From contig JAGVWE010000003.1 in NCBI GenBank assembly GCA_018304425.1, forward strand, positions 62,001-126,000: a DNA stretch of 64,000 nucleotides, given 5' to 3'. Shown piece by piece: positions 10,358 through 36,800 of this stretch (its first letter is position 1; every line of letters begins with the position of its first letter). The DNA is from Candidatus Iainarchaeum sp. Lineage in GTDB: Archaea; Iainarchaeota; Iainarchaeia; Iainarchaeales; UBA10219. The notes below the pieces were generated by a model that was given only the letters and a program-made list of their open reading frames with translations, was not told where the DNA came from and did no database searches. The position numbers were made by a program, and so were the translations under genes.

Positions 10358-10947
10358 ACCCTTTTAAGGTCTGCTTTCAGTTGTTCCGGGGAATGAAAGT
10401 AAACCACTTGGAAGCCCAGCAGGGTTGCGGCCAAGACATTGTACCAGGAATCGTCGACGAAGAGGGTTTCATCCGCCCTTGCGCCCACGGCCTTCAAGGC
10501 GGCTTCAAAGGCGGCGGGAAAGGGTTTCATGGCCTTTATTTCGTTGGAGAAAACCAGGGCATCGAAGCCGGCATAGCGCTTGAGCATGCGGTTGGTTGCA
10601 ACCTGGTAGTCCGAGGTGTTGGTCAGCAGCACGCATTTCACGCCGTTCCGCCGGAGGCCCGCCACCGCATCCAGCACGCCGTAGAATGGTTTGTTGGCTT
10701 TGTAGGGCGCGGTCAGCAGCTTCTCGAATTCCCCACGGGTCAGGGGAGCCCTGCCGTTGTCGAGCACGCGCGACCAGAACGAAAAGGAATCCATTTTTCC
10801 CGTCAGGTGCGCGCAGTTGTGCAGGCAGTAGCGGAAGAAGAACAGGGACAGGGGCACGCCTCGGGCCCTTGCCGCCGCCTGGAAGGTTTGGAAGTCGTTG
10901 TTCTCAATCACGACGCCGTTGAAGTCCAGGATGGCTGCTTTAATCAC
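10336..10947 (-). CDS. HAD-superfamily hydrolase with altered motif I
   Basis: 203 residues with the haloacid-dehalogenase fold: motif I DFNGVV (nucleophile D8), motif II LLTNTS, a lysine in IKAMKPF, and motif III FVDDSW. The second motif-I residue, usually the general acid Asp, is Asn10. Some HAD phosphatases tolerate a non-Asp here, so it may still be active. It overlaps YbaK by four bases and the phosphatidyltransferase by 22, so it belongs to that operon; a phosphatase acting on a lipid-phosphate intermediate is possible but is inference. Confidence 0.85.
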   Translation of the reverse strand: MIKAAILDFNGVVIENNDFQTFQAAARARGVPLSLFFFRYCLHNCAHLTGKMDSFSFWSRVLDNGRAPLTRGEFEKLLTAPYKANKPFYGVLDAVAGLRRNGVKCVLLTNTSDYQVATNRMLKRYAGFDALVFSNEIKAMKPFPAAFEAALKAVGARADETLFVDDSWYNVLAATLLGFQVVYFHSPEQLKADLKRVCGHKEG

Positions 10948-11405
10948 TCGCTCACGTCCTCGACGGAGGCCTCGAAGGCGTACTCCAGCAACTCGGCAGG
11001 CGTTATTTCGAGGAGGTGCGCGTCATCGCCGCCCCCGGCGTAAACCTTTTCCTTTGCCATGAGCTTCTGGTCAACCAGGGTTTTCACGCCGTACACGCTG
11101 ATGGGCGGAACGCCCCCGACTTCGTAGCCCGTCATTTCAAGGACCTGCTTGGGGTTGGCGAGTTGCAAAGCGGGGCCAAGGCCCATGGCTTTCGCGACCT
11201 TGGCCGGGCTGACCTTGTCGTCTCCCAGCAGCACCACCAGGACTGCCTGGCTGCGGTCGTAGACGAATACAATGGTTTTGGCGATGTCGTTGACGTTAAC
11301 CCCCAGCACATGGGCGGCTGCCTTGCAGTTGGGCACCTTGTCCACGCACTCGATGAGCTTGGCCTTCAAGCCGTTGGCTTCGATGAATTCGTCGAGCATA
11401 GGCAA
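10944..11405 (-). CDS. YbaK/ProX-type aminoacyl-tRNA deacylase
   Basis: 153 residues, matching single-domain YbaK/EbsC proteins that hydrolyse mischarged tRNA (Cys-tRNA-Pro, Ala-tRNA-Pro). The conserved lysine sits in IAKTIVF, and the GGVPPI and YAGGG loops that line the substrate pocket are present. It ends in an ATGA overlap with the HAD gene and starts 34 bases after metK ends, so it is probably in the metK transcript. Confidence 0.88.
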   Translation of the reverse strand: MPMLDEFIEANGLKAKLIECVDKVPNCKAAAHVLGVNVNDIAKTIVFVYDRSQAVLVVLLGDDKVSPAKVAKAMGLGPALQLANPKQVLEMTGYEVGGVPPISVYGVKTLVDQKLMAKEKVYAGGGDDAHLLEITPAELLEYAFEASVEDVSE

Positions 11406-11439
11406 GAAAACGGGAAAAAAAGGTTAAAAAGCCAAGGCT

Positions 11440-12615
11440 TTAGGCCCTGGCTTTGACCGCTGCGCACTCCCGCTTCAGGAGTTCGGCCTTGTCCGTGCGC
11501 TCCCAGGTGAAGTCCGGGTCGTCTCGTCCAAAGTGCCCGTAGGCGGAGGTCTTGGCGTAAATCGGGCGCCGCAGGTTCAGGGCCTTTATCATGGCTGCAG
11601 GCCGGAAGTCGAAGTGCTTGAGGACCGCGTTGTACAAGGCCTTTTTGTCGACTTTCTCGGTGCCGAAGGTGTCTACCATGACGCTGATGGGCTTTGCCCC
11701 GCCGATGGCATAGGAAAGCTGTATCTCGCACTTGTCGGCGAGGCCTGCGGCAACCACGTTCTTGGCCGCGTAGCGCGCCATGTAGGCTCCGGACTTGTCC
11801 ACCTTGGACGGGTCCTTACCGGAGAATGCCCCGCCGCCGTGGTTGCCGATGCCGCCATAGGTGTCGACGATTATTTTCCGGCCCGTGCAGCCGGCGTCCG
11901 CAACGGGCCCGCCGAGAACGAACCGGCCCGTGTTGTTGATGAAGTACTTCGTGTCCGCGTCCGCCAACGCGCCGCAAACCGGCTGGATGACTTCGCGCTT
12001 GATGTCTACCCTGAGCTTGTCCAGGGAAACATCGGGGTCGTGTTGCGCGGCGATGACCACGGCTTCCACGCGCTTGGGCTTCCCGTTCGCGTACTCGATG
12101 GTCACCTGGCTCTTGCCGTCCGGCCTGAGGTAAGTGAGCACGCCTTTCTTGCGGACTTCGGCCAGCTTGTGGCAGAGCCGGTGGGCCAGCAGGATGGGCA
12201 GGGGCATCAGCTCCGGGGTCTCGTTGGTCGCGTAGCCGGACATCATGCCCTGGTCGCCCGCTCCGACTTCCTTGTCACCGCTCGCGTCCACGCCCAACGC
12301 TATGTCGGGGCTCTGCTTGTTGATGGAAGTCAGCACGCCGACGCTCTGCGCGTCGAAACCGTACTCGGGCTTGGTGTAGCCGACTTCGCGGAGGACGTTG
12401 CGCACGATTTGCTGCACGTCAACGTAGGTCCGGGTCGTAATCTCGCCCGTGACCAAGATGAAGCCGTTGCCGGCCATGGTCTCGCAGCCGACCCGTGCCA
12501 GGGGATCGTCCTTGTAAATGGCGTCCAGGATCGAGTCGCTGATGCGGTCGCATACCTTGTCCGGGTGCCCTTCCGTTACTGCCTCCGACGTGAACAAAAA
12601 GTCTCCGTTGCGCAT
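11440..12615 (-). CDS. metK: S-adenosylmethionine synthetase, bacterial type
   Basis: 391 residues. Makes S-adenosylmethionine from methionine and ATP. Bacterial MetK landmarks are clear: [22 protein letters not shown] and [14 protein letters not shown]. Archaea normally use a different family with little sequence similarity, so this copy points to transfer from bacteria or a lineage-specific replacement. Start is ATG 12615 with a strong ribosome-binding site GGGAGGAA seven bases upstream, unlike the mostly leaderless neighbours. A TATA-like element lies at about 12663-12680. The HTH-CBS regulator diverges from it. Confidence 0.97.
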
Positions 12616-12662
12616 GGTGTTTCCTCCCAAGAAAGAAGTATTCCCTGGATTAGATAGGGACC

Positions 12663-12712
12663 GGTTTATATTAATAATTTCCTGCTGTAATTATTCGCAT
12701 AAGAATAAATAG
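12663..12712. promoter_or_regulatory. Divergent promoter region, metK / HTH-CBS regulator
   Basis: Two separate A/T boxes: AAATTATTAATATAAACC on the minus strand (12663-12680) for metK, about 30 bases of leader before its start, and AATAAATAGG on the plus strand (12703-12712) for the regulator, about 32 bases before its ATG. A regulator binding between them could control both genes. Confidence 0.6.
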
Positions 12713-12743
12713 GGTTTTAAAGGGTTTGAGACAAGGGTATTTC

Positions 12744-13316
12744 ATGCTGCCGGAATTGGGCGACATCAAGTTCAGGCGCAAGCAGTTCGGCTTGACGCAG
12801 TCCGAGCTGGGCCACCGCGCCGGGGTCTCCCAGTCCCTCATCGCGAAAATCGAGGCCGGCAGCCTCGTGCCGAGCTATGAGAACGCCAAGAAATTGTTCG
12901 ACTTGCTGGACCAGCTGCACGAGGAAGTCAAGGTGAAGGCATCCGATCTGATGACGCACAAGGTGTTGAGCATCCCCAGCAACGCGAGCCTGGCGCGGGC
13001 CGCGAAGGCCATGAAGGAGAAGGGGGTGTCCCAGCTCCCGGTCATGGACAACGAAAAAATCGTGGGCACCCTTTCCGAGAAGGACATCCTGCAGCGCATC
13101 CATGACACGGATCACGCCATTGACCTGGGGCAGTTGACGGTTGCCGAGGTCATGGGCGAGCCGCTTCCCCTCATCCGGGAGGACACGACCTTCAGCCTTA
13201 TCTCCTCCCTGCTGGAACACTATCCGGCCGTGCTCATCGGAAAGAAAGGCAAAGCGGTTGGCATCATCTCCAAGTCCGACTTGCTGAAGGTCCTCCTTAA
13301 TAGAAAGAAGAAATAA
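12744..13316 (+). CDS. HTH-XRE / double-CBS transcription regulator
   Basis: 190 residues. An XRE-type helix-turn-helix fills the first 60 (LTQSELGHRAGVSQSLIAKI is the recognition region), followed by two CBS domains (about 65-120 and 130-185; motifs DLMTHKVLSI, GTLSEKDIL, AIGIISKSDLL-like). CBS pairs bind adenosine nucleotides, and some archaeal ones bind S-adenosylmethionine or methylthioadenosine. Position directly opposite metK suggests it could sense S-adenosylmethionine, which is inference. The ATG at 12744 is preferred over a TTG six codons upstream because it starts the HTH and lies 32 bases from the TATA box. Confidence 0.88.
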   Translation: MLPELGDIKFRRKQFGLTQSELGHRAGVSQSLIAKIEAGSLVPSYENAKKLFDLLDQLHEEVKVKASDLMTHKVLSIPSNASLARAAKAMKEKGVSQLPVMDNEKIVGTLSEKDILQRIHDTDHAIDLGQLTVAEVMGEPLPLIREDTTFSLISSLLEHYPAVLIGKKGKAVGIISKSDLLKVLLNRKKK

Positions 13317-13343
13317 TAGTAGGCAGGGGGCGCCGGAGCAAAG

Positions 13344-13394
13344 GTTTAAATACGTAAGCCGCACATAGTAATGTAGGTAGTAACTTTTTACTAC
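13344..13394 (+). promoter_or_regulatory. Promoter and palindromic operator of the Tyr-rich surface operon
   Basis: TATA box GTTTAAATAC (about 13344-13353) is followed by TAGTAA at 13366-13371, then the palindrome TAGTAA (13378-13383)-N4-TTACTA (13388-13393), extended to a perfect 7+7 with flanking G and C. The palindrome covers the expected transcription start. The same TAGTAA-N4-TTACTA occurs at the TrmB-type gene promoter (26769-26784). A leader of about 65 bases ends with a GGGAGGAGGGAG ribosome-binding site. Confidence 0.7.
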
Positions 13395-13441: not shown

Positions 13442-13744
13442 ATGAATAAGGCAATGGCTTTGGCGTTGATTGCATTGTTTGCTTTGACCGCTTTGCCTAG
13501 CTTTGTCTCAGCCTATTATCCCTATGGGTATTATGGCGGCTACCGCCCCGGCGTTTATAACTACGGGGCACCGTATTATGGCTCGTACTATAACTACGCG
13601 CCAGGCTCGTACTACAACTACGCGCCATTCGTGTACAGCTACGCCTACTACAGGCCGGCCGTATACAACCGGTACTACGCCTACCCAATGGGTTACCCCT
13701 ATCAGTATGGGGGATGCGGCTGGGGTCCATGCGGGTATTGGTGA
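13442..13744 (+). CDS. Secreted tyrosine-rich low-complexity protein
   Basis: 100 residues: a 24-residue signal peptide ending FVSA, then 76 residues of which 28 are tyrosine, the rest mostly Gly, Pro, Ala and Asn. The unit SYYNYAP is repeated, and the tail GGCGWGPCGYW has two cysteines. No family recognised; composition is reminiscent of structural or adhesive matrix proteins, where Tyr allows stacking or cross-links, but that is analogy. First gene of an operon of exported proteins, behind a strong ribosome-binding site; the promoter carries the TAGTAA-N4-TTACTA operator. Confidence 0.75.
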   Translation: MNKAMALALIALFALTALPSFVSAYYPYGYYGGYRPGVYNYGAPYYGSYYNYAPGSYYNYAPFVYSYAYYRPAVYNRYYAYPMGYPYQYGGCGWGPCGYW

Positions 13745-13804
13745 AGGCAGTAACGGCATGAAGTCTTGCCGCCTAGCTTACAGCAGCGTTGAAAAGGGAA
13801 AAAC

Positions 13805-14332
13805 ATGCGGAAAACCATTTTACTGGCGGGAATGATGGTGCTTGCGTTTTTTGCAGGCAACGCCCTTGCCGCCCCGTTTTACTACTACGGCGAGCAACGG
13901 GCCACGCCTGACTACTTCAACAGCATCGACCCCTTGATCGGCTCGCCCTATTACCCGGAAACCGCCCGGACCTATAGCCTGCGCGGCTACTTCTTCCACC
14001 GCAACTACCCGGTGAGCGCGCTCTCCATGGCCTATGAGCCGCTACGCTCCGAGGAACGGTTTCCCTATGGCAACGTCTACTCGTATGACCCGTTCACGGG
14101 CCTGACCTATCTCACGGGCAGCAAAGGCTACCGGCCATTCGACTACCGCTACAACCAAGGCCTCGGCAGTGCCTGGAACGGCCAAGGCCTTTCGGGCCGA
14201 AGCGCCGGCCGAGACCCCTCGGGTCGAGGCCAGGGCTACCAGTACCTGGACGGCGTGGCCTATAAGCAGCCCGCGGCAGCCAGCCCGGGCTTTGACTTTG
14301 ACACGTATGCCAGAGGGGTAACCTACAGGTGA
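13805..14332 (+). CDS. Secreted Tyr/Gly-rich protein
   Basis: 175 residues with a signal peptide ending NALA, then a mature chain starting APFYYYGEQ and rich in Tyr, Gly, Arg and Ser. A Gly/Arg/Ser-rich patch lies near residues 120-140. No cysteine and no membrane anchor, so it should be released or held by the other cluster products. Sixty bases after the first gene; five bases before the next start. The TGA stop is part of the GGTGA ribosome-binding site of the next gene. No homologous family known to me. Confidence 0.7.
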   Translation: MRKTILLAGMMVLAFFAGNALAAPFYYYGEQRATPDYFNSIDPLIGSPYYPETARTYSLRGYFFHRNYPVSALSMAYEPLRSEERFPYGNVYSYDPFTGLTYLTGSKGYRPFDYRYNQGLGSAWNGQGLSGRSAGRDPSGRGQGYQYLDGVAYKQPAAASPGFDFDTYARGVTYR

Positions 14333-14336
14333 AAAC

Positions 14337-15137
14337 ATGAAAACCACTGCCTATCTTTTGGGAATAATCTTTTTGGCCTTGTTCGCGGCCAACGCGTTCG
14401 CGCAGGCCACGGTCCAACAGAACCCCATCGATTACACGTACTACGGTTACCCGACGGACTACCCCCTTAACTATATCCTGAAGAATAAGTTCCAGTTGTC
14501 GGGACCGGCCATGTTCGACTTCCGGTTCCTCTCACGGTACATCCCCAACGGAAAGCCGAACATCCTCGAAGAAGGCGTGTGCGTGGACGACGCCTGCTAC
14601 TGCAAGGTGAGATACGGCTTGCACGACAACACGAGTCACGTGCTGCCGCGCGACTACCAGATTTACATCACGCACCACAACAGCGCCAGCGACTACTCCG
14701 CGCCCAGGGGCTCACACAAGGGCTTGTACATGGACTGCGGGCAAAGCGTTTACCCTCCGAACCCCTATTATCCCGGGGAACGGAAGCCGCCCTACGTGCC
14801 CCAGGCTTACACGGCTGAAACCCTGGGCTCCAAGTACGGGACTCCGGTCAGCTGGAGCGTGGCCTATGACTACGCGAAGAACCTGCTCAAGCAACAGCCG
14901 CAGTCGGCCTACACCTACCAGCAGTTCTACGGCTATGGGAACACAAGCAACCCGCAGTTCAACCAGTACACGCGCCAGGGCGCCTACGACTGGGGGTATC
15001 CCATTAACACGACCTACAACCCCTACCAGACCGGAAGCTCTTACCAGGGGCCTACCAGCATTGGAGACCCCCTAGCGGGGGCAGGCGGCTATAGGACCAC
15101 CTACCGGCCGGGGTATACCTATCCCTACAATGGGTGA
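14337..15137 (+). CDS. Secreted Tyr-rich protein with a small cysteine motif
   Basis: 266 residues, signal peptide ending NAFA. A middle part with three clustered cysteines (EEGVCVDDACYCKVRYG) and one more (MDCGQS) looks folded; the flanks are Tyr, Pro, Gly and Asn rich (YTYYGYPTDYP, TYRPGYTYPYNG). No membrane anchor. Start ATG follows GGTGA, which overlaps the stop of the gene before, so translation is coupled. Function unknown; membership in the surface cluster is clear from spacing. Confidence 0.7.
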   Translation: MKTTAYLLGIIFLALFAANAFAQATVQQNPIDYTYYGYPTDYPLNYILKNKFQLSGPAMFDFRFLSRYIPNGKPNILEEGVCVDDACYCKVRYGLHDNTSHVLPRDYQIYITHHNSASDYSAPRGSHKGLYMDCGQSVYPPNPYYPGERKPPYVPQAYTAETLGSKYGTPVSWSVAYDYAKNLLKQQPQSAYTYQQFYGYGNTSNPQFNQYTRQGAYDWGYPINTTYNPYQTGSSYQGPTSIGDPLAGAGGYRTTYRPGYTYPYNG

Positions 15138-15142
15138 AAACC

Positions 15143-17521
15143 ATGCTGTCGCACAAAACTGTCCTCGCACTGGCCTTGTTGGTCTTGCTCGCTTCGAGCG
15201 CACTGGCCCAGACCTACAACTATTATAACCAGCCCACGGTCATCCCCGGGCAGCAGACTTCCAGGATTTCGCAGGCCGACATCGAGAAGGCCTTGCGGGA
15301 AATAGCCCGTGTCTACGGCCAAGTCCAGGGCAGGTTCATTGCCGAACAGCAGACCGGCTACCAGCTTCCAACCGTTGCCCAGGGACAGCCTTCGCTGGCC
15401 GGGCAACTGCAGAAGTACCTGCCCCAACCCACTGCCGCTGCCCAAGGACAACAGGCCAACCCGTTCCTGACCTATGGCTTCCAGCAGGACGTGACTGACT
15501 TGTTCAGCCGGGACTTCGTCCGGCAGCAACAAGGCGAGAACCCCCTGTACTCGCTGCCCCAGTACAAGCAGGACCCCCAGGCCCAAGCCGCTTACCAGCA
15601 GGCGCAACTCCCCGATTACCGGGAAGTGCGGCTGGTGGAATTGCGGGAGCGCAGCGTGCTCCAGGGAAACATGGAGTTCTTTGACGTGGAAATCAGGAAC
15701 ACGAACTTCATGCCCCGGGCCTATGCCTTGCACGTTGAGAAAGAGGATGCTTCCCTGAAGACCTCGCTGTCGGAGAGCGCGTTTTCGCTGGCTCCAGGCG
15801 AGGCCCGGACCGTGAAGGCCATCGTGGAGCCCACCAAGGAGACCAAGCCGGGCGCCAAGGCGGTTTACGTCGTGGTTACGAGCAGCCCCACCACGAGCGC
15901 CCCTACTGGCACTGGTTTGGGGCAACCCAGCTATTATGGCCAGGAATACGATTATGGTGGGGCCTCGGCTCTGGCCTCGGCTGCGGCCTCGGCTTTGCCC
16001 GCGCCCGTGATGGGGTTGCAGCGGCTGGTCGTTTCATTGGAGGACTTCCAGAAACCCGTCAAGGCCGAAACCGTCGTGTTGAAAGTCAACCGCCAGGAGT
16101 ATGACGTGGGCGCGAAGGGCTTTGACGTCCAGGTCAGCCCGAACAAGGTGGGCGGTTCGGACAAGGTAGAGGTCAGCATCGCTGAAGACTTTTTCGTGGG
16201 CAGCCAGCCTGCCGTGGTGGAAGTCCTGTTCATGGATGCGTTCGACAACGCGTACTCGCTTTCCTTTGAGTTGGTGCCCTCCAAGTACGAGGTCCAGGCC
16301 CGCAACCTCGAGTTCAAGGCCCAGGTCTTCAAGGCTTTGCAGTATGGCCGCGAGTTGCGGAACGCTTACTTCCGCGCGAGGGCTTCGACCGGCAAGTACG
16401 TGAAGAACAACGCGTACCAGTTGCAGGGGCCCCGGGCGTTCGTGAAGCTGGAGGAAACCATTCCAGTGGGCTCGAAGAATAACTTCGAGTTTTATGCGGA
16501 AGACCAGTTTGGCACTTACTTCAAGACGGTGGGAAGCTTCACCATCCGGTTCCTCGTGGCTCCCCAAGGCATGGGCTTGCCCGAGCAGGGCTACCGGGAG
16601 TACGGCAACAAGCAGGAGTACCGGGAACCGCTGACCCTGAGTGTCGTGGAAAAGCCGGTCTTGGCGGACGTGCTGCAGATTACCGCTTATCCGGCTGAAA
16701 TTAGCCTTAAAGGCGGGGAAAGCCGGGCTTTTGAGGTCAGCGTCTTGAATGCGGGCACGGAGCCGGCCAGGGACCTGGACCTGGCTTTGAGGGGGCTGCC
16801 GCAGGGCGTTGAATTCACGGCGAGCCAGGTGGATGAACTGCCGGCCGGAAAGTCCGCTGTGTTCAAGGCCACGCTGGCCACTGGTCTGGACGTCGAAAAA
16901 TCGTTCAGCCTGGAACTCGAGGCAAACGGCCTGGGCTTGATTGCCGCAGGCAAGGCATTGACCCTGAAATTGGAGCCCAAGCCACGGGTGTCCGAGCAGA
17001 ACCTGGTCAGCGAAGTCGTTGAACGCGAGCTCTCAAAGACCACGGTGAAGAGCAAGGTCTCCGACGAACAAATCAAGGCCGAAGTCGAGAAGATGATTTC
17101 CGCCCTGCAGTCCGAGGGCTTGAAGAAGGAGTCCGCCGAAAAAATCAGGGAACTGATTCCGGTGGACTTCGCCGTGAAGGCGAACATCTTGAATGCCGAG
17201 GGTGAGAAGGTGGACGCGCTTTACGGGATCAAGAAGGGCAAGGACTTGTTTGTCACGCGCGTGTATGACGGCATCGTGAACTCGGAGGTCAACCTGGACT
17301 ACGATACCTTGAACCGGTTGGCCGTGGAGAACATGGTGGGTTCCTTTGGCCAGGCGGGCCTGGTGGGCTTTGGGGTCAGCGACCAGGGAGTCGCAGTGGG
17401 TTTGGTCATCCTGGTGATTGGCCTGGTCGCCGTCATTTTGCTGTTCCGGGAAAAGCACAGTTCCAACGAGAAGTTCCTCCGCAAGCGGAACTTCGCCGTG
17501 ATTAAGGCCAAAAACCATTAA
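15143..17521 (+). CDS. Membrane-anchored surface protein, last gene of the first surface operon
   Basis: 792 residues: signal peptide ending SALA, a Gln/Tyr-rich N-terminal part (to about 160), several beta domains, an Ala/Ser linker near 275, a COG1470/NEW3-like Ig domain (about 515-610, LNAGTEPARDLDLALRGLP), a charged helical region, and a C-terminal transmembrane helix (GLVILVIGLVAVILLF) with a basic cytosolic tail. This could anchor the three small secreted proteins encoded upstream. The ATG at 15143 is preferred over GTG 15134 because GGTGA lies before it. The linker DNA is one arm of an exact 33-bp inverted repeat. Confidence 0.75.
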   Translation: MLSHKTVLALALLVLLASSALAQTYNYYNQPTVIPGQQTSRISQADIEKALREIARVYGQVQGRFIAEQQTGYQLPTVAQGQPSLAGQLQKYLPQPTAAAQGQQANPFLTYGFQQDVTDLFSRDFVRQQQGENPLYSLPQYKQDPQAQAAYQQAQLPDYREVRLVELRERSVLQGNMEFFDVEIRNTNFMPRAYALHVEKEDASLKTSLSESAFSLAPGEARTVKAIVEPTKETKPGAKAVYVVVTSSPTTSAPTGTGLGQPSYYGQEYDYGGASALASAAASALPAPVMGLQRLVVSLEDFQKPVKAETVVLKVNRQEYDVGAKGFDVQVSPNKVGGSDKVEVSIAEDFFVGSQPAVVEVLFMDAFDNAYSLSFELVPSKYEVQARNLEFKAQVFKALQYGRELRNAYFRARASTGKYVKNNAYQLQGPRAFVKLEETIPVGSKNNFEFYAEDQFGTYFKTVGSFTIRFLVAPQGMGLPEQGYREYGNKQEYREPLTLSVVEKPVLADVLQITAYPAEISLKGGESRAFEVSVLNAGTEPARDLDLALRGLPQGVEFTASQVDELPAGKSAVFKATLATGLDVEKSFSLELEANGLGLIAAGKALTLKLEPKPRVSEQNLVSEVVERELSKTTVKSKVSDEQIKAEVEKMISALQSEGLKKESAEKIRELIPVDFAVKANILNAEGEKVDALYGIKKGKDLFVTRVYDGIVNSEVNLDYDTLNRLAVENMVGSFGQAGLVGFGVSDQGVAVGLVILVIGLVAVILLFREKHSSNEKFLRKRNFAVIKAKNH
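15961..15993 (+). repeat. 33-bp exact inverted repeat, left arm
   Basis: Encodes an Ala/Ser/Leu linker (ASALASAAASA). Its reverse complement is present without mismatch at 19521-19553, where it encodes an Ala/Glu/Arg linker in another gene. The match includes the non-repetitive codons, so it is more than shared GCC/GAG periodicity. Confidence 0.8.
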
Positions 17522-17532
17522 CCCCCTGGAAA

Positions 17533-17567
17533 GCCTTGATAAGGCCTGGGAGGCTTATTCTAGCCTC
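17533..17567 (+). terminator. Two tandem hairpins after the first surface operon
   Basis: GCCTT-GAT-AAGGC (17533-17545) and GAGGCT-TATTCT-AGCCTC (17550-17567) lie just after the stop codon and before the next promoter. They probably mark the 3' end of the first operon, though no long T-run follows. Confidence 0.5.
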
Positions 17568-17584
17568 AATTGCCGCCAGAGATA

Positions 17585-17638
17585 GGTTTAAATACTACCT
17601 CGGCAGCATGGTATATGTAGCTTGTTCACATGAACAAG
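17585..17638 (+). promoter_or_regulatory. Promoter and palindromic operator of the second surface operon
   Basis: TATA box GGTTTAAATACT (about 17585-17596) followed by a perfect palindrome CTTGTTC-ACAT-GAACAAG (17621-17638) at the expected transcription start. The geometry, a 7+7 palindrome with a 4-base spacer about 25 bases after the TATA box, copies that of the first surface operon, but the half-site sequence differs. Confidence 0.7.
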
Positions 17639-17657
17639 TTAATCAAGGTGGGTTTTG

Positions 17658-18191
17658 GTGAAAAACACGGCAATCTTCCTGGCACTCTTGTTGGTGGTTA
17701 CAACCATCCGGGCAGAAGTCCTTGAACTGCCTGCCGAAGTCCAGTTTAGCGGACAGCCGGTCGAACTCTCTTTTAAGGTACGCAATGAGGCCTTCCAGGC
17801 CCTGCCGGTGCAGGTCGACGTCCAAGTCGTTTCCTTCAAGGTCCTGCGCAAGCCCGACCTCGTCCAACCCGGGGAAGTCCAGGAAATCCGGCTGCAGCTT
17901 CAACCCAGGAACGACCTCCTCGGCTCAACCTACCAGTCCACTATCACGGTCAAGATGGGGGCCCAGGAAACCCGGAAAGAAGTCAAATTCGTTTTCGGGG
18001 AAGCCCCCAAGCAGGCCCCGAAGAAAAATGCCCTCCCTCCAGCCACTCCAAAGGCTCCCACCGCATTCGCGGTGCTGCCCCTGGCCTTCAACGAGTTCAT
18101 GATGAACCTGGGGCTCGCGTTGCTGGCGGCCATTCTCTTGATTTCGTTCATTGCAAGGCTTACCAAAAGATTCATGCAAAACAGGGGTTGA
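17658..18191 (+). CDS. Small membrane-anchored beta-domain protein
   Basis: 177 residues starting at GTG 17658, five bases after an AAGGTGGG ribosome-binding site. A signal peptide, one Ig-like beta domain (about 25-105, LSFKVRNEAFQALPVQVDVQV resembles NEW3-type domains), an Ala/Pro/Lys linker, and a C-terminal transmembrane helix followed by KRFMQNRG. It looks like a short version of the large anchored protein at the end of the first operon. First gene of a three-gene unit; function unknown. Confidence 0.65.
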   Translation: MKNTAIFLALLLVVTTIRAEVLELPAEVQFSGQPVELSFKVRNEAFQALPVQVDVQVVSFKVLRKPDLVQPGEVQEIRLQLQPRNDLLGSTYQSTITVKMGAQETRKEVKFVFGEAPKQAPKKNALPPATPKAPTAFAVLPLAFNEFMMNLGLALLAAILLISFIARLTKRFMQNRG

Positions 18192-18197
18192 AAAAAG

Positions 18198-19715
18198 ATG
18201 GACAAAGTCTTCCTCACGGGTTTGTTGATGGTCTTCCTGCTCGGATTGCCTGGTCTAGCCGGCGCCGTGACTTTCTCTGACCGGCTGCCAACAGGCGATA
18301 GCTCGAACGACCCCCTCCAAAAGATTGCCGTAACCCTTTCCGACCCGGACGGCATCAACAAGGACAAGGTTTACTTCGAAGTCGACGGCTTCAACTATGC
18401 CTTGAACGACCCCCGCATGAGCTATAACGAGGCCACGGGCCGCCTGGAATATACTCCCATCCGGGAGCGGGACGAACTCGACAAGGTGGACGTACTCGTT
18501 TCAGCCGAAGACACCCTGGGAGAAAAAGGCGAACTCCGGTTTTCCTTCACGATTAACTCCATCGGCCCGGCACCCATTGACTTCCTTTCCTTCGAAGCCG
18601 GCGTGCTCCGGTGGGCAAAGCCCTTGTCCCTGGACTCGGTGGCCAAGTACAAAGTCTACCGGGACACTTCCAGAATCAAGGACAACGGCAAGTCAGCCTA
18701 CTTCCTGGCCGAGGCTACGGGATTGAATTACACGGACTCCACAAGGGAAGAAGGAAAGAGATACTTCTACGCCGTTACGGCGGTGGACAACGCAGGCAGC
18801 GAAGGCCGGATTGCCTTGAACGTCTCCAGTGACGGACAGGTCTTCCCGGTCGGCCAGCCGGCTCCGGCTCCCCTGCCCCTGCCGTTCCCGGTTTACCCGG
18901 CACCCACTCCATTCCCTCCGACGGTGCCATACCCCGGCTTCGAAGGATTCGACCCTTACCCCCTGCCGAGCCCCAGCATCCCGTTCACGGGCCGCGTGGA
19001 CTTCGCTCCGAAGGGAGAAGTCATCCAACTCGAGCGCGGCGGCATTTCAAAGGCCGACTTCTCGGTCTCCAACGGTTTGCCCGTGGAAGTCACGGTCCGC
19101 TTCGAGATGAGTCAGGCCTCCATCGGCAACGGAACCGTTTTCATGTTCCAGCCCCAGAGCCAGCAGCTCCGCTACGGCAGGGGCTCCGGCTTCAAGCTCG
19201 CACCCGGCGAGACCACGTTTATCAGCCTGCCCGTAAAGGCCTCCGAACAGGCGTTGCCAGGCATTTACCTGCTGGGCATCGATTTAATCGCCTTGGACGA
19301 GGAAGGCCGCATGGTCTACTCGGACAGCTCCGGGGCGGAAGTGCAGGTATTCGCGCCCCTGCCCGAGCCTTTGGCTGCCGACCTGGTTCCCGCCAACTAT
19401 TACCAAGAGCTGGCACCGGTTGAAGACAACGGCCGCATCGAGGCCAGAATCGTCGAAGCGCCTCAGCCACTTATCCGCATCGCCGTGGAAGACGCCCAGG
19501 TTGCGCCCAAGCAAAAGGCAGCCGAGGCCGCAGCCGAGGCCAGAGCCGAGGCCCGTCAACCGCTGACCCAGGTCGCAGTCAAAGAGGCAGGCAATGCCCC
19601 TGCCGGGTTCTTCAACCTGGCCGCCATGACCACCCTGAACATGGCCCTCGGCTTCCTGGTGCTGGCCTTGTTGCTGGTGTACGGTTTAATCAGGCTTTCA
19701 GTGGAGAGGCGGTGA
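18198..19715 (+). CDS. Membrane-anchored surface protein with FnIII-like domain
   Basis: 505 residues: signal peptide ending LAGA, a cadherin-like region (SDPDGINKDKVYFEVDG), a fibronectin-III-like domain (about 120-215, YKVYRDTSRIK to YFYAVTAVDNAGSEG), a Pro-rich stalk (about 220-265), a beta domain, an Ala/Glu/Arg linker, and a C-terminal transmembrane helix with RLSVERR tail. The linker DNA is the right arm of the 33-bp inverted repeat. Six bases from the previous gene and overlapping the next possible start, so one operon. Confidence 0.7.
   Translation: MDKVFLTGLLMVFLLGLPGLAGAVTFSDRLPTGDSSNDPLQKIAVTLSDPDGINKDKVYFEVDGFNYALNDPRMSYNEATGRLEYTPIRERDELDKVDVLVSAEDTLGEKGELRFSFTINSIGPAPIDFLSFEAGVLRWAKPLSLDSVAKYKVYRDTSRIKDNGKSAYFLAEATGLNYTDSTREEGKRYFYAVTAVDNAGSEGRIALNVSSDGQVFPVGQPAPAPLPLPFPVYPAPTPFPPTVPYPGFEGFDPYPLPSPSIPFTGRVDFAPKGEVIQLERGGISKADFSVSNGLPVEVTVRFEMSQASIGNGTVFMFQPQSQQLRYGRGSGFKLAPGETTFISLPVKASEQALPGIYLLGIDLIALDEEGRMVYSDSSGAEVQVFAPLPEPLAADLVPANYYQELAPVEDNGRIEARIVEAPQPLIRIAVEDAQVAPKQKAAEAAAEARAEARQPLTQVAVKEAGNAPAGFFNLAAMTTLNMALGFLVLALLLVYGLIRLSVERR
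19521..19553 (-). repeat. 33-bp exact inverted repeat, right arm
   Basis: Exact reverse complement of 15961-15993. Here read as GCC GAG GCC GCA GCC GAG and so on, giving AEAAAEARAEA. Recombination between the arms would invert about 3.6 kb containing the end of the first surface operon and the promoter of the second. Confidence 0.8.
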
Positions 19716-19723
19716 AACAAGTC

Positions 19724-21544
19724 ATGAACACGAAAATCGTTTTAGCTGGACTGGTATTGCTGCTCGTGGCAGGCCTTGCCGCGTTCGCAAAAGCCGAACC
19801 CATGGTAATGGCAGGCCAGGCAAAAACCTTGACGGTGGAACTCACCAACACGAAGAGTGTGGCCGAGACCCTGGACTTGTCCATTGAAAACCAGAACACG
19901 GGCATCATCGCCGAAGTCGAGCAAAAAGCGCTGACGCTCAAGGCCGGCGAACGCCGGACCGTGAACGTGATAGTCAAGGCACTGCCGGACGCCAGGGAAG
20001 GAACCTATTCCATCCGCTTGGTCGGCAAAAAGATGGTAACAGTCCAGGCCCAGCCGCAACCCATGCAGCCAGTAACGGCTCCCGGAGCGGTTCCAGCCAT
20101 GAACCAGCCCATGATGCCCATTCCGCCTGTTTACGGCCAGGCACCCGCTTACAACCAGGCCCTCCCAGGGTTTTCACCCGGACAGCCTGGAAGGCCGGTG
20201 TTCTATCCAACCATTCCAGGCAGGCCCCCGCTCCTCGTCGACGAAGGCGAAATGGATGTGGATGGCGCCCTAGCCATCGAAGCACATCTCTCCAATGCCG
20301 TGGACCCCGACAGCGTGAGGCTGGGCGTTAGGAACGAACTCTTTGACGCGAGCCGCAGGGAACTCAACGTGAGAGGCATCCCCGGCGGCGCCATCGTGGA
20401 ATTCGCAGATGATTTTTTCGAGAAAAAGGAAATCGTGCCCGTGTTCCTTGCCCTCGGCGACAGCCGCGGCAACGAGTACCGGTTTTCCTATGCCTTCAGC
20501 CCAGTGACCCTTGCCGTGGAAGACCCGCGGCTCTCGGTCCGGATCAACGAACTGGATGACGTGGACCCGACCTCGGTGCGGTTCGACCTCCGCGCCAACG
20601 ACTTTGGCGGAACCTTCACCGCTGACGGGCCGGGCATTTCCCTGAACCCCGTGACCGGCGAGATCGTGGCCGACCTGCGCGGCGCGCCGCTGCGGCTCGG
20701 CAGCCGGATTCCCTTCAGCGTGTACGCGAAGGACCTGGTGGGAAAGGAGTTCCGGGTCTCGGGAGACTTCGTGCTTGACTTTGACGACCGGCTTGCCGCC
20801 GCAGGCCAGGCAGTGAACAGCGGTGACACGCTCAAGGACTTCGTGGACTCGGTGGACCGGCAAAAGTACCGGGACTACATCCTCTACCGGAGGAACGTGA
20901 CCGAACCCTACATCAACTCGAGGAACTACATTGACAGCGTGAACCGACAGATGGACATCGACGCGGTAAGATACGGCGGGCCCATCTACCCGGCCAGCGA
21001 ACCATTCCTGGTGCAGGACCGGGACCGCATCACGTACTTCCAGGACGCGGAAATGGATGGCAGCCCCTACGCGGACGCCATTCCATTCGGGCCCATGAAC
21101 CCCTTCCTGGGGGACAGCTTCCCGGCACCCGAAGCAGGCCAGTTCGAGCCCAGGGAAACCGTGCGCGAAGAAGTGGTCTTCGAGAAAGCACTTTCCTTCC
21201 GAGTAGTGAACGAACGGGCTTCCACGGCCGCTCCATCCACGCGAGTAGCCGGGAAACCAGCCAAGCCCAACGCGGCCCAGGCTTTTGCCTCGCCCGTGCG
21301 GGTCACGGAAGCAGGGACCTCACCGGTAGCCGGCTTTGTTTCCTTCAGCTCCGTTGCCGCCATCGGAACGATTGGCGCGGGCATCGTCGTGGTGCTCTTG
21401 CTGGCCTTCATCGTGGGCTCGCTGAGCCGGCCTACGGGCCAGCCAACGGTTCGACCGGCCAGAACCGGGAACCGTTTGCCCCGGAAAAGAACTGGAAACA
21501 TTTCACCGGCCATGCACGTCATCCTCAACTACCGAAGCGGATGA
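19724..21544 (+). CDS. Membrane-anchored surface protein, Pro-rich
   Basis: 606 residues: signal peptide, a NEW3-like beta domain (about 25-105, LTLKAGERRTVNVIVKA), a Met/Pro/Gln-rich stalk (about 110-165), two or more cadherin-like beta domains (VDPDSVRLGVRNELFD and VDPTSVRFDLRANDF are repeated motifs), a charged region, then a C-terminal transmembrane helix (GIVVVLLLAFIVGSL) and basic tail. ATG 19724 follows GGTGA; GTG 19712 overlapping the previous stop is the alternative. Last gene of the second surface operon, ending 52 bases from a converging ABC permease gene. Confidence 0.7.
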   Translation: MNTKIVLAGLVLLLVAGLAAFAKAEPMVMAGQAKTLTVELTNTKSVAETLDLSIENQNTGIIAEVEQKALTLKAGERRTVNVIVKALPDAREGTYSIRLVGKKMVTVQAQPQPMQPVTAPGAVPAMNQPMMPIPPVYGQAPAYNQALPGFSPGQPGRPVFYPTIPGRPPLLVDEGEMDVDGALAIEAHLSNAVDPDSVRLGVRNELFDASRRELNVRGIPGGAIVEFADDFFEKKEIVPVFLALGDSRGNEYRFSYAFSPVTLAVEDPRLSVRINELDDVDPTSVRFDLRANDFGGTFTADGPGISLNPVTGEIVADLRGAPLRLGSRIPFSVYAKDLVGKEFRVSGDFVLDFDDRLAAAGQAVNSGDTLKDFVDSVDRQKYRDYILYRRNVTEPYINSRNYIDSVNRQMDIDAVRYGGPIYPASEPFLVQDRDRITYFQDAEMDGSPYADAIPFGPMNPFLGDSFPAPEAGQFEPRETVREEVVFEKALSFRVVNERASTAAPSTRVAGKPAKPNAAQAFASPVRVTEAGTSPVAGFVSFSSVAAIGTIGAGIVVVLLLAFIVGSLSRPTGQPTVRPARTGNRLPRKRTGNISPAMHVILNYRSG

Positions 21545-30885: not shown

Positions 30886-33800
30886 TTACACCCGGATGGT
30901 CTTCCCACTTTCATGGTAGCGTTTCAAGGTGTAGGCTGCCAAGAAGGAAACGCCGATTTCGGCGAGGGCCGCGATGACGCCCAGGCCGAGCCTCGAGGAG
31001 AGGCCCAGCCACAGCGGCAGCGCGAAGGCCAGCAGGGCCAGGAAGGCCTGCACGAGTTTCTCGCGCTTCAAGTGCGTCGTCGACTTGGGCCCGGGCGGGA
31101 AGAACGCCCGCGCCTGCGAGTACACGAGGTAGGCGGCGGCCATGGCGCATACCAGCAGCAGGACCACGGCAAAGGGGCCGACCTGCTCGATGGCCTCGAT
31201 GGTGGGTTCCAGGGAACTCGAAATCGAGTTCAAGATCGAGCCGAACAAGTCCAGGGCGCTGAAAGACTTTTCCGCGGAAAGCTGTTCCTTGACGACTTTC
31301 ACGGCGTACACGCCCGGCACCTTCACCGTGAACTCGACCTTGCCCAGCTCGTCCGTGAGCGCCTCCAGCTTTTCGCCGTCCGGGGCCTCCGCGATGACGG
31401 TCGCGGCGCGGATGGTGTTGCCCAACTGGTTCCTGACTTCCACGACCTGCCGCTCGCCGATGGTCAACGACTGCTTCAAGGCAATCAGGAGTTCCTCGGG
31501 CTCCGAGCAGTCCGAGGCCTTGTCCCGGCAGGTGCCGTCCGCGCACTGGACCGTTTCCTCCGGACACTCGCAGTTGCCGGACTCCAGCGAACAACGCGCG
31601 CCGCGCTCGCAGTTGCTGATCAACCCCTCGCAGTCCCCGCACACGCAGGACTCGTCCAGGCCGCACACCCCATCCGCCTCGCAGGAAGCCGGCTGGCCGC
31701 AGAGCATGCTAGGCTTGCAGCTTCCGTCCGTGCACCGGTTGGTTCCGGCCGGGCAAGCCGCGACCGGCGAGCACTTGCCGCGCGCGTCCAGCACCGTTCC
31801 CTTTGGACAGGCACAGGCGCTCAACCGCACATTGCAGGCCACGGTGGAAGCACAGATGCCTTGCTTGCCGTCGCAGTCCCGGCACGAGCAGTCCTCGCTG
31901 GCCTCGCACACGCGGTCGTTGTCGCACAGCCGGGGAGAAGGCGGCTCGCTCACGGCCAGGTCCAAAATGAATTCCCCGAAACCCTGCTCGCCTTCCAAGA
32001 ACACGACCTTCAACCCGTTGGGCAGGCGCTCAATGCCTGCCGCCAGGTTGCTGCCCAACGCCTCGCTGAACTCGAATTTGATGCGTTCCGCGACCTTGAG
32101 CCGGCCCAGGGAAAACGAGAGCTTGTTGGGCGAGGGAAGCAGGTAACCGGGCTTTCCGGGCTTGTCCTTGCCGTAAATCCGCATGGAGGCCGGGGTCTTG
32201 ACCTTCAAGCCGATTTTTTTTGCGGCAAAGTTGGCCTGCGGTTGCTCAACTTCGAAGACCAGGTCGTCCACGGTCTTCAGGTCCTGCGCGGCCTTGAACC
32301 GGAAGTCCAGGGAAAACCTCCCGGAAGCCGAGTCCCGCACCGAGGACTTCAAGCTGTAGAACTGGCCGTTCACGAAGCGGTCCGAGTACTGCACCTGGAC
32401 GTTCTTGTTGCCACCCGAGACCCTGAGCTTCGCGCCCTCCGGCACCGGGACCCCATTGGCTTGGAATTCCACGCTGCCCTGCTGCAAGGGCTTTGAAAAG
32501 TTTTCAAAGGTCAGGTTGATCTTCATGTCCACGGGCCCCGGAACCAGCGAACAATCAGGGCGACAGCTGTTGTCCGCGCAGAGGTTGGTTCCAGGCAAGC
32601 AGCCGCCGGCCTTGCAGGTTCCGTCCGGGGCCAGCACGGTTCCGGTGGGGCAACCGCACAAGCCGGTTCCGGTTGAGCCCACGGTCTCGCCGAAGTAACG
32701 GCAGGCCGAGGCATCCACGCAGCCGTCCTTTTGGCTAGCACAATCCGAACAATTGCAGGCCTCCGTGGTTTCACACGCGCCGTCCCGGTTGCAGGGCAAG
32801 AAATTGCCGGAACCACAGTCCACCTTGCAGGTGTTGTCCAGGCAACGAGTCGTTCCCACCGGACAGCCTCCACCTACCGAACCGCAGTCCACCTTGCAGG
32901 TGTTGTCCGAGCACAGGCTCTGACCAACCGGACACTGCAAGGGGGGACCGCAATAGTCGCGGCAGCTGCCGTCCACACAGGCAGTTTTTCCAACCGGGCA
33001 AATAGGACAATTAACTTGACAAATCGGGGGCCCACAGTCCAGCCGACAGGCGCTGTCCGAGCACAGGGTTTGGCCGACCGGGCAGGGCCCGCAAAACGTG
33101 CGGCAGGTGTTGTCCGCGCAACGCGTTTGCCCTCCTGGGCAAGGCAAGCAGTTGCTTTTACAGGGGCCGGGACCTGGGTCGGGCGTGCACAGCCAACTGC
33201 ACGAGCCATTGGAGCATCTGGTTTTGGGCGGCAGGCAAGGCGGGCCCGAACCGCAGTCGGCTTGGCAAGTATTGTCTTCACAGCGCTGTAAACCATTGGG
33301 GCAGGGCAGGCATTCGACAAAAATCCCGGTGCAGGGTCCGGGCCCGCAATCGGTTTGACAACTATTGTCTCCGCACAACTGCTGGCCCGGTGGGCAGGCA
33401 CCGGTTCCGCAGTCCGGCCGGCAGACATCGTCCGCGCACAAGGCTTGCCCGAGCTGGCAGGGGCCACAGAATTCCCTGCAGGAACCGTCCAGGCATGGAA
33501 TCCTTCCAGGGGGACAGGACGGACAGTTCACCTGGCAGGGACCTGGCCCCCGGCCGCTGCCGCAATCAAAGCGGCAAACGTTGTCCTCGCACACCTTCTT
33601 GGGAGGCAAACAGGGCTCGCCCCCACCCGGCCCACAGTCGACCTGGCAGGAACCATTGGCGCACCGGTTCAGGCCGGGCAGGCAAGGCACGCAGTTGACC
33701 TGGCAGGGACCCGGCCCACAATCCAGCCGGCAGGAGTTGTCATTGCATGTTTGGCTGGGTGGCGTGCAAGCCTGGCCCTGGCATTGGCTGGGAGGCTGGC

Positions 33801-36800
33801 AGGTGCCATCCAGGCAACGCGTCAACCCCTCTGGGCAGGGAAGCGATTGGCAGTAGGGGCTGCAGCTCCCGTCCACGCACAAACCGCTGCCCGGCGGACA
33901 GGACTGGCGCGGGCAACGGCCTGGGGCCGCGCATTGATTGCAGCCCTCGCACAAAACCGTTCCCTGGCTGCACTCGCAGACATTGGCGGCGGGGAGTTCG
34001 CCGGAAAGCATGGCCAAGCCGTTCACGCAGGGGCTTGACGAGCCCACGGGGCAGGGAGTGATGAGGGGCAGCAACCGGCTTTGGAGGTTGCCGCGAACCA
34101 CTGAGTAAAGGGAGAGGGACGACTGCTGGAGCTTGAGTTCTGCCAGGACATAGGCGTTGCCGCTGGACTGGGTTTCGGTGGCAAGAACGGTGGGCATGGA
34201 AGTGAGTTGCCCGTTAAACAAGGGAAGGGCTCTATTCGAAGCGTCGACGAGTTGCAGCATGCATTGGGGGACGGCTGGCCGGGTCAGGCAATAGTCGATG
34301 AACTTCACGGAATAGTGGCGGAGGCCGCGGGTGCCGAGGACATTTCCCTTCTGGGCAAAGGCGTCTTGGCTGGGGCAGGAGGCCTTGGTCAGCCCTTCCC
34401 AGGGGGTGGCGCGCAGGCAGGCGTTGCCCTGCAGCTTGCAGTACAAGGCAGGCAAACCGTTTTCTTCGAGCAAGGCCCAGTCCACGGCGCCCGCGCAGTG
34501 CAGGAGGGGTGCGGCTTGCAGGGGCACGCTTGGCTCCACGTAAAACGCCGTGACGCTGTTCAAGCCCGAGTTCCCGGGCATGGGCTGGGAGTAGGCAACC
34601 AGGATGTTTTCGCGGCCTTCCCTGGCCAGCTGGTTTTTGGCGGGTTCCGCGCACTTCGCTCCCTGGATGCAGCTGCTGGGCTGGCCAAAGCAGTCGCTGC
34701 AGGAACAGTTCTCGTTGACTTCGCATAGCTTGTTTTCATTGCAAGGCAGGCTTCCCTGGTTCGCGCCTGGGCAGGCCGTCGCGCACAAGCCGGTGGGGCA
34801 GCGCGTGGTGCCGGGCGGGCAGTTGCTGTTGGTGGGCTGGTTGAGTTTTTCCTGGCAGGCCAGTGGGACTTCCATGGTTTGCTGGGTGCAGTCCACTTCG
34901 AGGGGAATCAGGTAGCTTTGCACGCTGGCCGTGGGCGGCAGCCCGATCACGGGCGGCATGCCTCCGGGGAAGAGGAAGGAAGTCAGGAGGTTGACGAAGT
35001 TGTTGCCGCTGCATTCCGTGAAATCGTCCGCGCCGTTGAGGTTGTTGTCGTCCAAGCCGTTGTTGCAGGTGCCGACGAGGAAGGGCCGTGCAAGGAAGTT
35101 GCCCGCGGACTGGTTGAGTTGCACGAGCAGGAGCAGGAGGTCTCCTTGCTTGGCCTGGCTAGTGTCGAGGAAGGACTCGTAGGAAGGCGTGGAGCCCAGG
35201 GCCAGGGGAGTGGAACCCGGCGGGTCGAAGGCATTAGGGGGAACTGTCCAGGGGCTGGACTGGCCTGGATTGTCCGATGGCTGCCGGGAGTAGGGGGGCA
35301 CTGAACCGGCTGGGACCAGGATCCAGGCCGCGCCCGTGAAGGGCAGGACAAAGTGGGAGTCCAGGTAGTTGAAGGAATTCGGCGAGCGGAACAAGAGGGT
35401 GATGGCGGCCGGCAACTTCATGAACATATTCATGATGACGGGCATGGGCAGGCCAGAAAAACAGGAGTTGCCTGGCAGGGTGAGCTGGCCGAGGGCGCCT
35501 GCGTTCACCGTGGTGGGGCAGCTGATGCCCAACGGCTTGGCATCGATGAGGAAGGTGTTGGTCCAATAGGCTTGGGGGTTCGAGCAGCCCTGCACGGCCG
35601 GGCAGTCCGAGCAACCGCAGCCCTCGCCGTAATTGCAGGCGTTGTCGTAGTTGCAGTAAGCGGAAACGTTGAGGGGGTTGGCAATCGTGTTGAGTTGCAG
35701 GCGCACCCGGGTCCTGCCGCTGAACGCGGAATTCTGGGGGCAGATTTTGATGCCGGGCTGGAGGATGCTGGTGCCGCCCGGGGTGGGCAACTGCGTGTAC
35801 GTGGTTCCGGGGTTGGTGGGGCTTGAAATGAGGGGGCCCATGATGCGCAGCACTTTGTCGGTGGAGTCTGCGATGGAAATCTGTTGGAGCGAGAAATGGG
35901 GGCTGGTGAGGGAAGCAACCGGCGGCGTGTAAGAATAGGTGACGGTTATGCTTGCCGTCAGGGTGTAGGCCGGGATGGTTCCGCCGGGACCGATGGCGTT
36001 CGGGTTTCCAGAGCTTGGCAGGCTGGTTTGGGCTGGGACGGTGGCTGAAACCGTGACGGTGTTCTGGCCCGGGCTCAGCGAAACGTTCCGGGTCATGGAG
36101 CCGTTTCCTTGGCCGGTAACCTGCACCGAGTTGTTGACGGCCAGCGAGTAGGACAAGGGGCTGGGGGACGTGAGGGTGAATGCGATGGGAATCGTGGCCG
36201 TGGTGAAGGAGGCATTGTTTGCCGGGGAATTGATTACGAGGGTGGGGGTGGTGGGCGCATTGTACCAGATACGGTGCCAGCGGTAGGCCCAGGCTCCGTC
36301 CCGGGCCTTGGCGTACAAGCGGAGGATGTTCGAGCCCGGGTTCAGGCCGGAAATGGTTTTCTGGAACGAGCCGCGTCCATAGCCGGCGTAAAGCTGTTTT
36401 CCATTCAACTGAATGGTGTAGTAAAGGGGACTGGGCCGCGTGCGCAGGTCGTCAATGAAGAAGCTGGCGTTGATGACCGAACTGGTGAACCGTTGGTCGG
36501 GGTAGGGAGAGAGGATGGATGTGGTAACCCGGTTGGAGGTCATGGGTGGCGTGGGAAAGGAGGGAAGGGAGGGATTCGGGAAGGGCAGGGAGGACGGGGG
36601 CAGGTTGATGCCCTGGAGGTTCAGTACGAGGGGCTTGCCGCTTTTTTCCCTGCTGGCAAGGTGGCCGGAACCGCTGCCGGAGCCACTGGAGCTTCCTTCT
36701 TCGACTACTATGTAAACGGTGTCGGAAGCCGTTTTGTCCAAATAGGTGGCCTGGACCCGAATGGGAATGCTTCCGGTCTCGGTCAGGGCCAGGGGCACCT

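Follow-up and report, generated by a model that had tools for sequence, protein, structure and literature searches.

The nearest described system to the locus reported here is the predicted archaeal secretion complex arCOG01314/arCOG02884, in which, as in our cluster, operons encode anchored and secreted proteins whose extracellular domains are Ig-like (PMC5898192). Archaeal Ig-domain surface clusters are a kind already known, and the present cluster is a variant of it. Its larger anchored proteins (P4, P6 and P7 below) resemble the archaeal Ig-like S-layer proteins in having a signal peptide, a tandem Ig-like ectodomain and a C-terminal membrane anchor, and a further member, P5, has an ectodomain fold like that of the PapD-like superfamily (pilus chaperones, MSP/VAP and HYDIN/ASH proteins). 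Tyr-rich proteins like those encoded beside them are known from Eimeria oocyst walls, where they are cross-linked (PMC4776368), and from a diatom, as a surface protein (PMC4220933). For the locus itself, we found no description in the open-access papers searched, subscription papers not being covered. To our knowledge, no member of the Diapherotrites is in pure culture, and their cell surface is poorly known. A locus present in nearly all good-quality genomes of one of their orders, and encoding a component that is most conserved in its membrane helix, is a concrete target for studying the surface and attachment of these archaea.

Genes and transcription signals in the window

The window, by which we mean the whole 64 kb stretch analysed, comes from Candidatus Iainarchaeum sp. 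(GCA_018304425.1, contig JAGVWE010000003.1, positions 62,001-126,000, forward strand). The genome measures 1.48 Mb and is the sole member of its own family among 75 species of the order. Seven genes form operon 1 (P1-P4, 13442-17521) and operon 2 (P5-P7, 17655-21544), with the following features.

11440..12630, minus strand: metK (S-adenosylmethionine synthetase), from its translation; conserved left flank, adjoining the locus in most relatives
12726..13316, plus strand: regulator with HTH and two CBS domains (Pfam HTH_3 5e-12, CBS 1e-23); conserved left flank
13342..13353, plus strand: TATA-type promoter box of operon 1, AGGTTTAAATAC, exact copy
13377..13394, plus strand: perfect inverted repeat (7-bp arms, 4-nt loop) where transcription of operon 1 is predicted to begin
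13442..13744, plus strand: P1, secreted; 76 aa mature, 37% Tyr, 17% Gly, 12% Pro
13805..14332, plus strand: P2, secreted, Tyr/Gly-rich; 14% Tyr in the mature form
14337..15137, plus strand: P3, secreted, Tyr/Pro/Gly-rich; 15% Tyr in the mature form, 4 Cys
15134..17521, plus strand: P4, anchored, two Ig-like NEW3-type domains (PF10633); homologue of B
17584..17595, plus strand: TATA-type promoter box of operon 2, AGGTTTAAATAC, exact copy
17621..17638, plus strand: perfect inverted repeat (7-bp arms, 4-nt loop) where transcription of operon 2 is predicted to begin
17655..18191, plus strand: P5, protein A; PapD/MSP-like Ig domain, linker and conserved TM helix, from profile and model
18198..19715, plus strand: P6, anchored; its first 200 aa share homology with the N-terminal region of B from three relatives
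19712..21544, plus strand: P7, anchored, N-terminal FixG_C/NEW3-type domain; occupies the C slot

A preliminary description of this DNA had claimed seven exported proteins in two tight operons, and all of these ORFs are present at the coordinates above, each with an N-terminal hydrophobic segment resembling a signal peptide. The intergenic gaps from P1 to P7 are 60, 4, -4, 133, 6 and -4 bp, and the GC3 of the seven ORFs (0.66-0.81) is as expected of coding sequence. The archaeal-type box AGGTTTAAATAC has two exact copies in the 64 kb, against a chance expectation of 0.15 with one mismatch allowed. Since these copies stand only upstream of P1 and P5, the two operons are, by sequence, real transcription units; they have the box in common and are probably co-expressed. 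About 24 nt beyond each box lies one of the inverted repeats, where an archaeal transcript start is expected; the two are alike in geometry and different in sequence, and the repeat at 13377..13394 is a candidate operator or 5' hairpin. Roughly one third of the relatives scanned have an inverted repeat upstream of A, but its place and sequence vary, so we treat it as a local feature only. The HTH/CBS gene stands between metK and A on the gene maps of most relatives, and its product is a candidate regulator of the locus.

The ABC exporter pair that had been linked to the cluster does converge on it from 21597, but it is not part of the locus, as no homologue occurs in the loci of about 45 relatives. 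Elsewhere in the window, the minus strand at 30886-41565 encodes a giant adhesin, an exported protein of 3559 aa that contains repeats of the OmpL47 and Ca2+-stabilised adhesin types. A fragment homologous to it adjoins a Tyr-rich gene in one relative (L032).

The order-wide locus and its anchored proteins

The preliminary description had presented the cluster as an isolated system, and this view has to be given up for its anchored half. Using a P5-like profile search, we found the A family in 56 of the 75 genomes of the order and in 21 of the 22 good-quality ones, several smaller genomes being without it; outside the order, one of 12 genomes in the phylum carries it. The carriers were deposited as Candidatus Diapherotrites, GW2011_AR10 included. 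On the gene maps of about 45 loci, YbaK and metK lie on one strand and HTH/CBS, A, B and C on the other, with A of ~180-330 aa, B of ~600-1100 aa and C of ~700-1050 aa. The window follows this plan in the order YbaK, metK, HTH/CBS, P1-P3, P4, P5, P6, P7, the YbaK/metK/regulator flank occupying 10944-13316. P5 corresponds to A (hhalign 99.6%) and has the family's signal peptide, Ig-like domain and TM motif AAILLIAFIAR; in most relatives A also has its own upstream TATA-like box, as P5 does here. Profile matches and gene order show that a locus is conserved across an order of Diapherotrites (Iainarchaeota), and the cluster is the shape it takes in one family. The locus is thus kept in synteny among relatives rather than scattered, although the exact seven-gene order that we looked for there occurs only here. 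The slot beside A has a different content in each family, and P1-P3 occupy it in the window, between the regulator and A.

The four proteins P4-P7 end in a hydrophobic helix with a short basic tail, as had been described, the tail of P6 being only a few residues long. P4 matches the B profile with an E-value of 9e-34 (hhalign 97.5% over 494-596), and its model has two confident beta-sandwich/Ig stretches, the remainder being mostly of low confidence. As a single query against the genome contigs P4 gave no match, and neither did the B alignment against PDB sequences. The N-terminal 200 residues of P6 matched B in three relatives by phmmer (L035, 3e-21; L082, 7e-10; L084, 2e-7). Family models placed one FixG_C-like domain in P7, and hhalign related its N-terminal domain to B (95.3%) and to the N-terminus of C (93.7%); P7 also shares a domain with P4 (1.5e-6) and with P6 (1.5e-4). 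By these comparisons P6 and P7 fill the places of B and C and are not their full-length orthologues. P4 is a B homologue but precedes A, and P6 and P7 have only domains in common with B and C; the anchored genes here thus read as B/C genes shuffled about an invariant A.

In the AF2 model of P5 (mean pLDDT 80), a single Ig-type sandwich is joined by a disordered linker to a helix of 33 residues. This sandwich belongs to the PapD/MSP type, with VIA Z-scores of about 11 to Caf1M and FimC and near ties to VAP-A and others; the superposition on Caf1M has an rmsd of 2.6-2.8 over 101-102 residues, and identity to PapD-like proteins is 10-17%. Foldseek returned many Ig matches, a TRAP subunit and an S-layer SbsC domain among them. 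Such a fold, common to many unrelated families, tells the fold of P5 and not its function. The membrane helix of A, with the consensus LAIIAAILLIAFIARL, has a mean pairwise identity of 0.45 against 0.23 for the ectodomain, a contrast absent from B (0.27 vs 0.23) and C (0.27 vs 0.27). With conservation roughly double that of the ectodomain, this helix probably binds partners rather than serving as a plain anchor. Sequences and profiles, together with the confident fold of P5, point to Ig-like stalks on the cell surface, in agreement with the anchored beta-domain scaffolds proposed earlier.

Several further features of the locus in relatives were recorded. Three public contigs that carry it (L116, L126 and L127) bear the labels Thaumarchaeota, Falkowbacteria and Chloroflexota and are probably mislabelled bins of the order. 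In GW2011_AR10 (L045, 7403-10519 and 1573-4662), a large anchored protein before A contains a thioredoxin/DsbA domain, found only there among the relatives' proteins scanned, and the C protein contains vWA. C proteins (L086, L046, L045 and others) have a conserved lysine-rich cytoplasmic tail, KLEEIGKKK...KKK, past the membrane helix. In L032, L081, L085 and L086, a three-gene run recurs downstream of C, encoded on the other strand and pointing towards the locus; its products of ~250-480, 550-1000 and 200 aa mostly have export signals.

Tyrosine-rich products in the window and in relatives

The first product was said to be 37% Tyr after signal removal and the next two to be Tyr-rich as well, and both statements stand. 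Counted after the A-x-A site, P1 has Tyr at 28 of 76 mature residues (binomial chance at 4% Tyr, 5e-20), P2 at 22 of 153 (2e-7) and P3 at 36 of 244 (2e-11). No Pfam or NCBIfam model fitted P1-P3, and profile searches placed the small proteins in no known S-layer, pilin or archaellin family. Across the 75 genomes of the order we found no convincing homologue of P1 or P3, and viral contigs and plasmids contained none of P3. Matches to P1/P3 in L026 and L028 (0.02-0.03) were rejected, the one lying within a frame of 769 aa and the other within a short frame that contains a stop. In composition, P1-P3 are secreted and very Tyr-rich, as the cross-linked Tyr-rich wall proteins are. The cluster is free of enzymes, again as described; neither an oxidase or peroxidase nor any other enzyme for cross-linking is encoded in it.

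Tyr-rich exported proteins or Tyr tracts occur at the locus in four families (f1, f16, f17 and f20). In f20, L032 and L090 encode small secreted proteins with 22-24% Tyr upstream of YbaK and A, and in a further genome (G019) a homologue of the L090 protein occupies a matching position, making three f20 species in all. Between G029 and G019 this protein shows 41% identity, with 13 of 21 Tyr positions kept and synonymous sites saturated; its composition is retained more than its sequence. A search for the Tyr-rich protein of L032 elsewhere in the order gave only a weak, chance-like match. In f17, Tyr/Cys-rich proteins of 274-380 aa lie between A and B, and their GWxCKD...CxxGCxxGxC module recurs at the N-terminus of the anchored B of L038, a fusion which ties the secreted and anchored parts together. 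In f16, Tyr tracts such as YYNGDYYDNHYYDDYYG stand within a large anchored protein between the regulator and A.

As a control, we sampled about 704 kb in total from outside the locus, in stretches covering part of each of five genomes (G000, G029, G043, G016 and G048). None of the 279 exported-like ORFs there reached 12% Tyr, although a less strict criterion (6 Tyr in 20) does pick out one control protein. The Tyr-rich proteins of different families are, by sequence comparison, unrelated to each other and recurrent in kind. This recurrence supports a link with the locus and does not prove it, as it concerns a minority of relatives, in small numbers and from partly related species.

A proposed surface apparatus and its comparison with known systems

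The reading that we favour, and hold to be only just probable, is that A-B-C are anchored stalks holding a secreted cargo specific to each family, here a Tyr-rich coat of P1-P3. A, B and C (P5; P4/P6; P7) would be exported by Sec, anchored by their C-terminal helices and displayed as Ig-like stalks on the cell surface. A would be the fixed core, whose helix packs against partner helices; since that helix is more conserved than the ectodomain, A probably joins the stalks into one complex. The variable slot beside A would supply exported cargo differing by family, here the unanchored Tyr/Gly/Pro-rich P1-P3, which may be released and then retained by the stalks. P1-P3 might cohere by aromatic stacking, perhaps with Tyr-Tyr cross-links in addition, and so form a thin coat or an adhesive layer. 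We connect them with the stalks by position, shared export and recurrent composition, not by descent. We infer the coat and its chemistry, and the sheath, pilus-like or adhesive function suggested in the preliminary description would likewise be a possible role. Only tentatively do we entertain the broader idea of an order-general envelope-assembly apparatus, in which a single-domain PapD-like A, through its conserved membrane helix, organises Ig-like stalks that capture the secreted matrix proteins of each family. In this genome these would be chains of up to 37% Tyr, cohering by themselves or cross-linked into a coat, with an archaeal Tyr-rich extracellular matrix as the result.

The same anchored proteins could be arranged differently, with B and C (here P4, P6 and P7) forming an S-layer or its membrane-bound underlayer, A acting as spacer or anchor and the Tyr-rich proteins being minor S-layer-associated components. 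Tandem Ig-like ectodomains with a C-terminal membrane helix, the near-universal presence of A among the good-quality genomes, the SbsC domain among the many Ig matches of P5 and a weak similarity of P7 to the putative S-layer model NF033506 agree with this arrangement. We consider it unlikely, however, since the P7 match scores only 16.1 bits where the cut-off is 110, the cluster proteins match no S-layer or sorting-signal family, N-glycosylation sequons are few (0-3 per protein) and A is missing from several smaller genomes. The fold of P5, with its Z of about 11 to Caf1M, FimC and VAP-A and its TRAP match, and the unusually conserved helix of A would also suit a complex for chaperoning or secretion, bound to the membrane outside the Sec pore and comparable with TRAP or the fimbrial chaperones, with the Tyr-rich proteins as substrates; related Ig-membrane proteins are predicted in the archaeal secretion system (PMC5898192). 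This is quite improbable in our estimate, because the PapD-like fold is too widespread to indicate function, P5 has one Ig domain whereas pilus chaperones have two, usher, ATPase and DUF4350 protein are all absent from the cluster, and most relatives carry A-B-C without a visible gene for a small secreted substrate.

The Tyr-rich genes might also be young, fast-changing orphans that landed in a permissive slot and do no joint work with A-B-C, as the missing homologues of P1 and P3, the unrelated sequences in other families and a slot content varying family by family would allow. We regard this as still less probable, in view of the Tyr-rich composition recurring at the locus in several families and absent from the control stretches, the f20 gene kept in two species with a Tyr-rich gene in the third, the f17 module fused to B and the promoter box common to both operons in the window. 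A pilus built by the cluster, with P1 as its type IV pilin-like subunit, is extremely improbable: the start of P1, MNKAMALALIALF, fits a loose prepilin-peptidase motif by eye, but P1 has a clean A-x-A-type Sec site (FVSA|YY), P2 and P3 lack the motif by eye, no pilin family matched, and the cluster contains neither a pilus ATPase nor a platform protein.

Stalks holding a family-specific cargo can be set against each of the known systems. Compared with the arCOG01314 complex, in which vWA is fused to Ig domains as in the AR10-type C protein of one relative, the cluster has fixed neighbours (metK and the HTH/CBS regulator) and adds Tyr-rich secreted proteins. It contains no DUF4350, the genome's only DUF4350-like match, below cut-off, being about 85 kb off at C5:168666-169223, and a scan of ten proteins from the cluster and its flanks found no MoxR-type AAA ATPase. 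That DUF4350-like protein (L166) may itself mark, elsewhere on the contig, a system related to arCOG01314. In contrast to the S-layer proteins, the locus encodes at least three different anchored proteins, one of which is short, has a single domain and possesses a conserved membrane helix, and it has no above-cut-off match to S-layer models. P5 differs from the PapD chaperones in being single-domain, membrane-anchored and outside the cell, with no usher or pilin partner. P1-P3 differ from the Eimeria and diatom proteins in being archaeal, with no oxidase identified and no sequence relation expected. The likeness is one of analogy only; all are secreted, Tyr-rich and of a wall or surface, and their mode of action may match. 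If P1-P3 do form a coat, it would be an archaeal parallel to the Tyr-rich walls of eukaryotic cysts and possibly a new class of adhesive or fibre-forming sequences.
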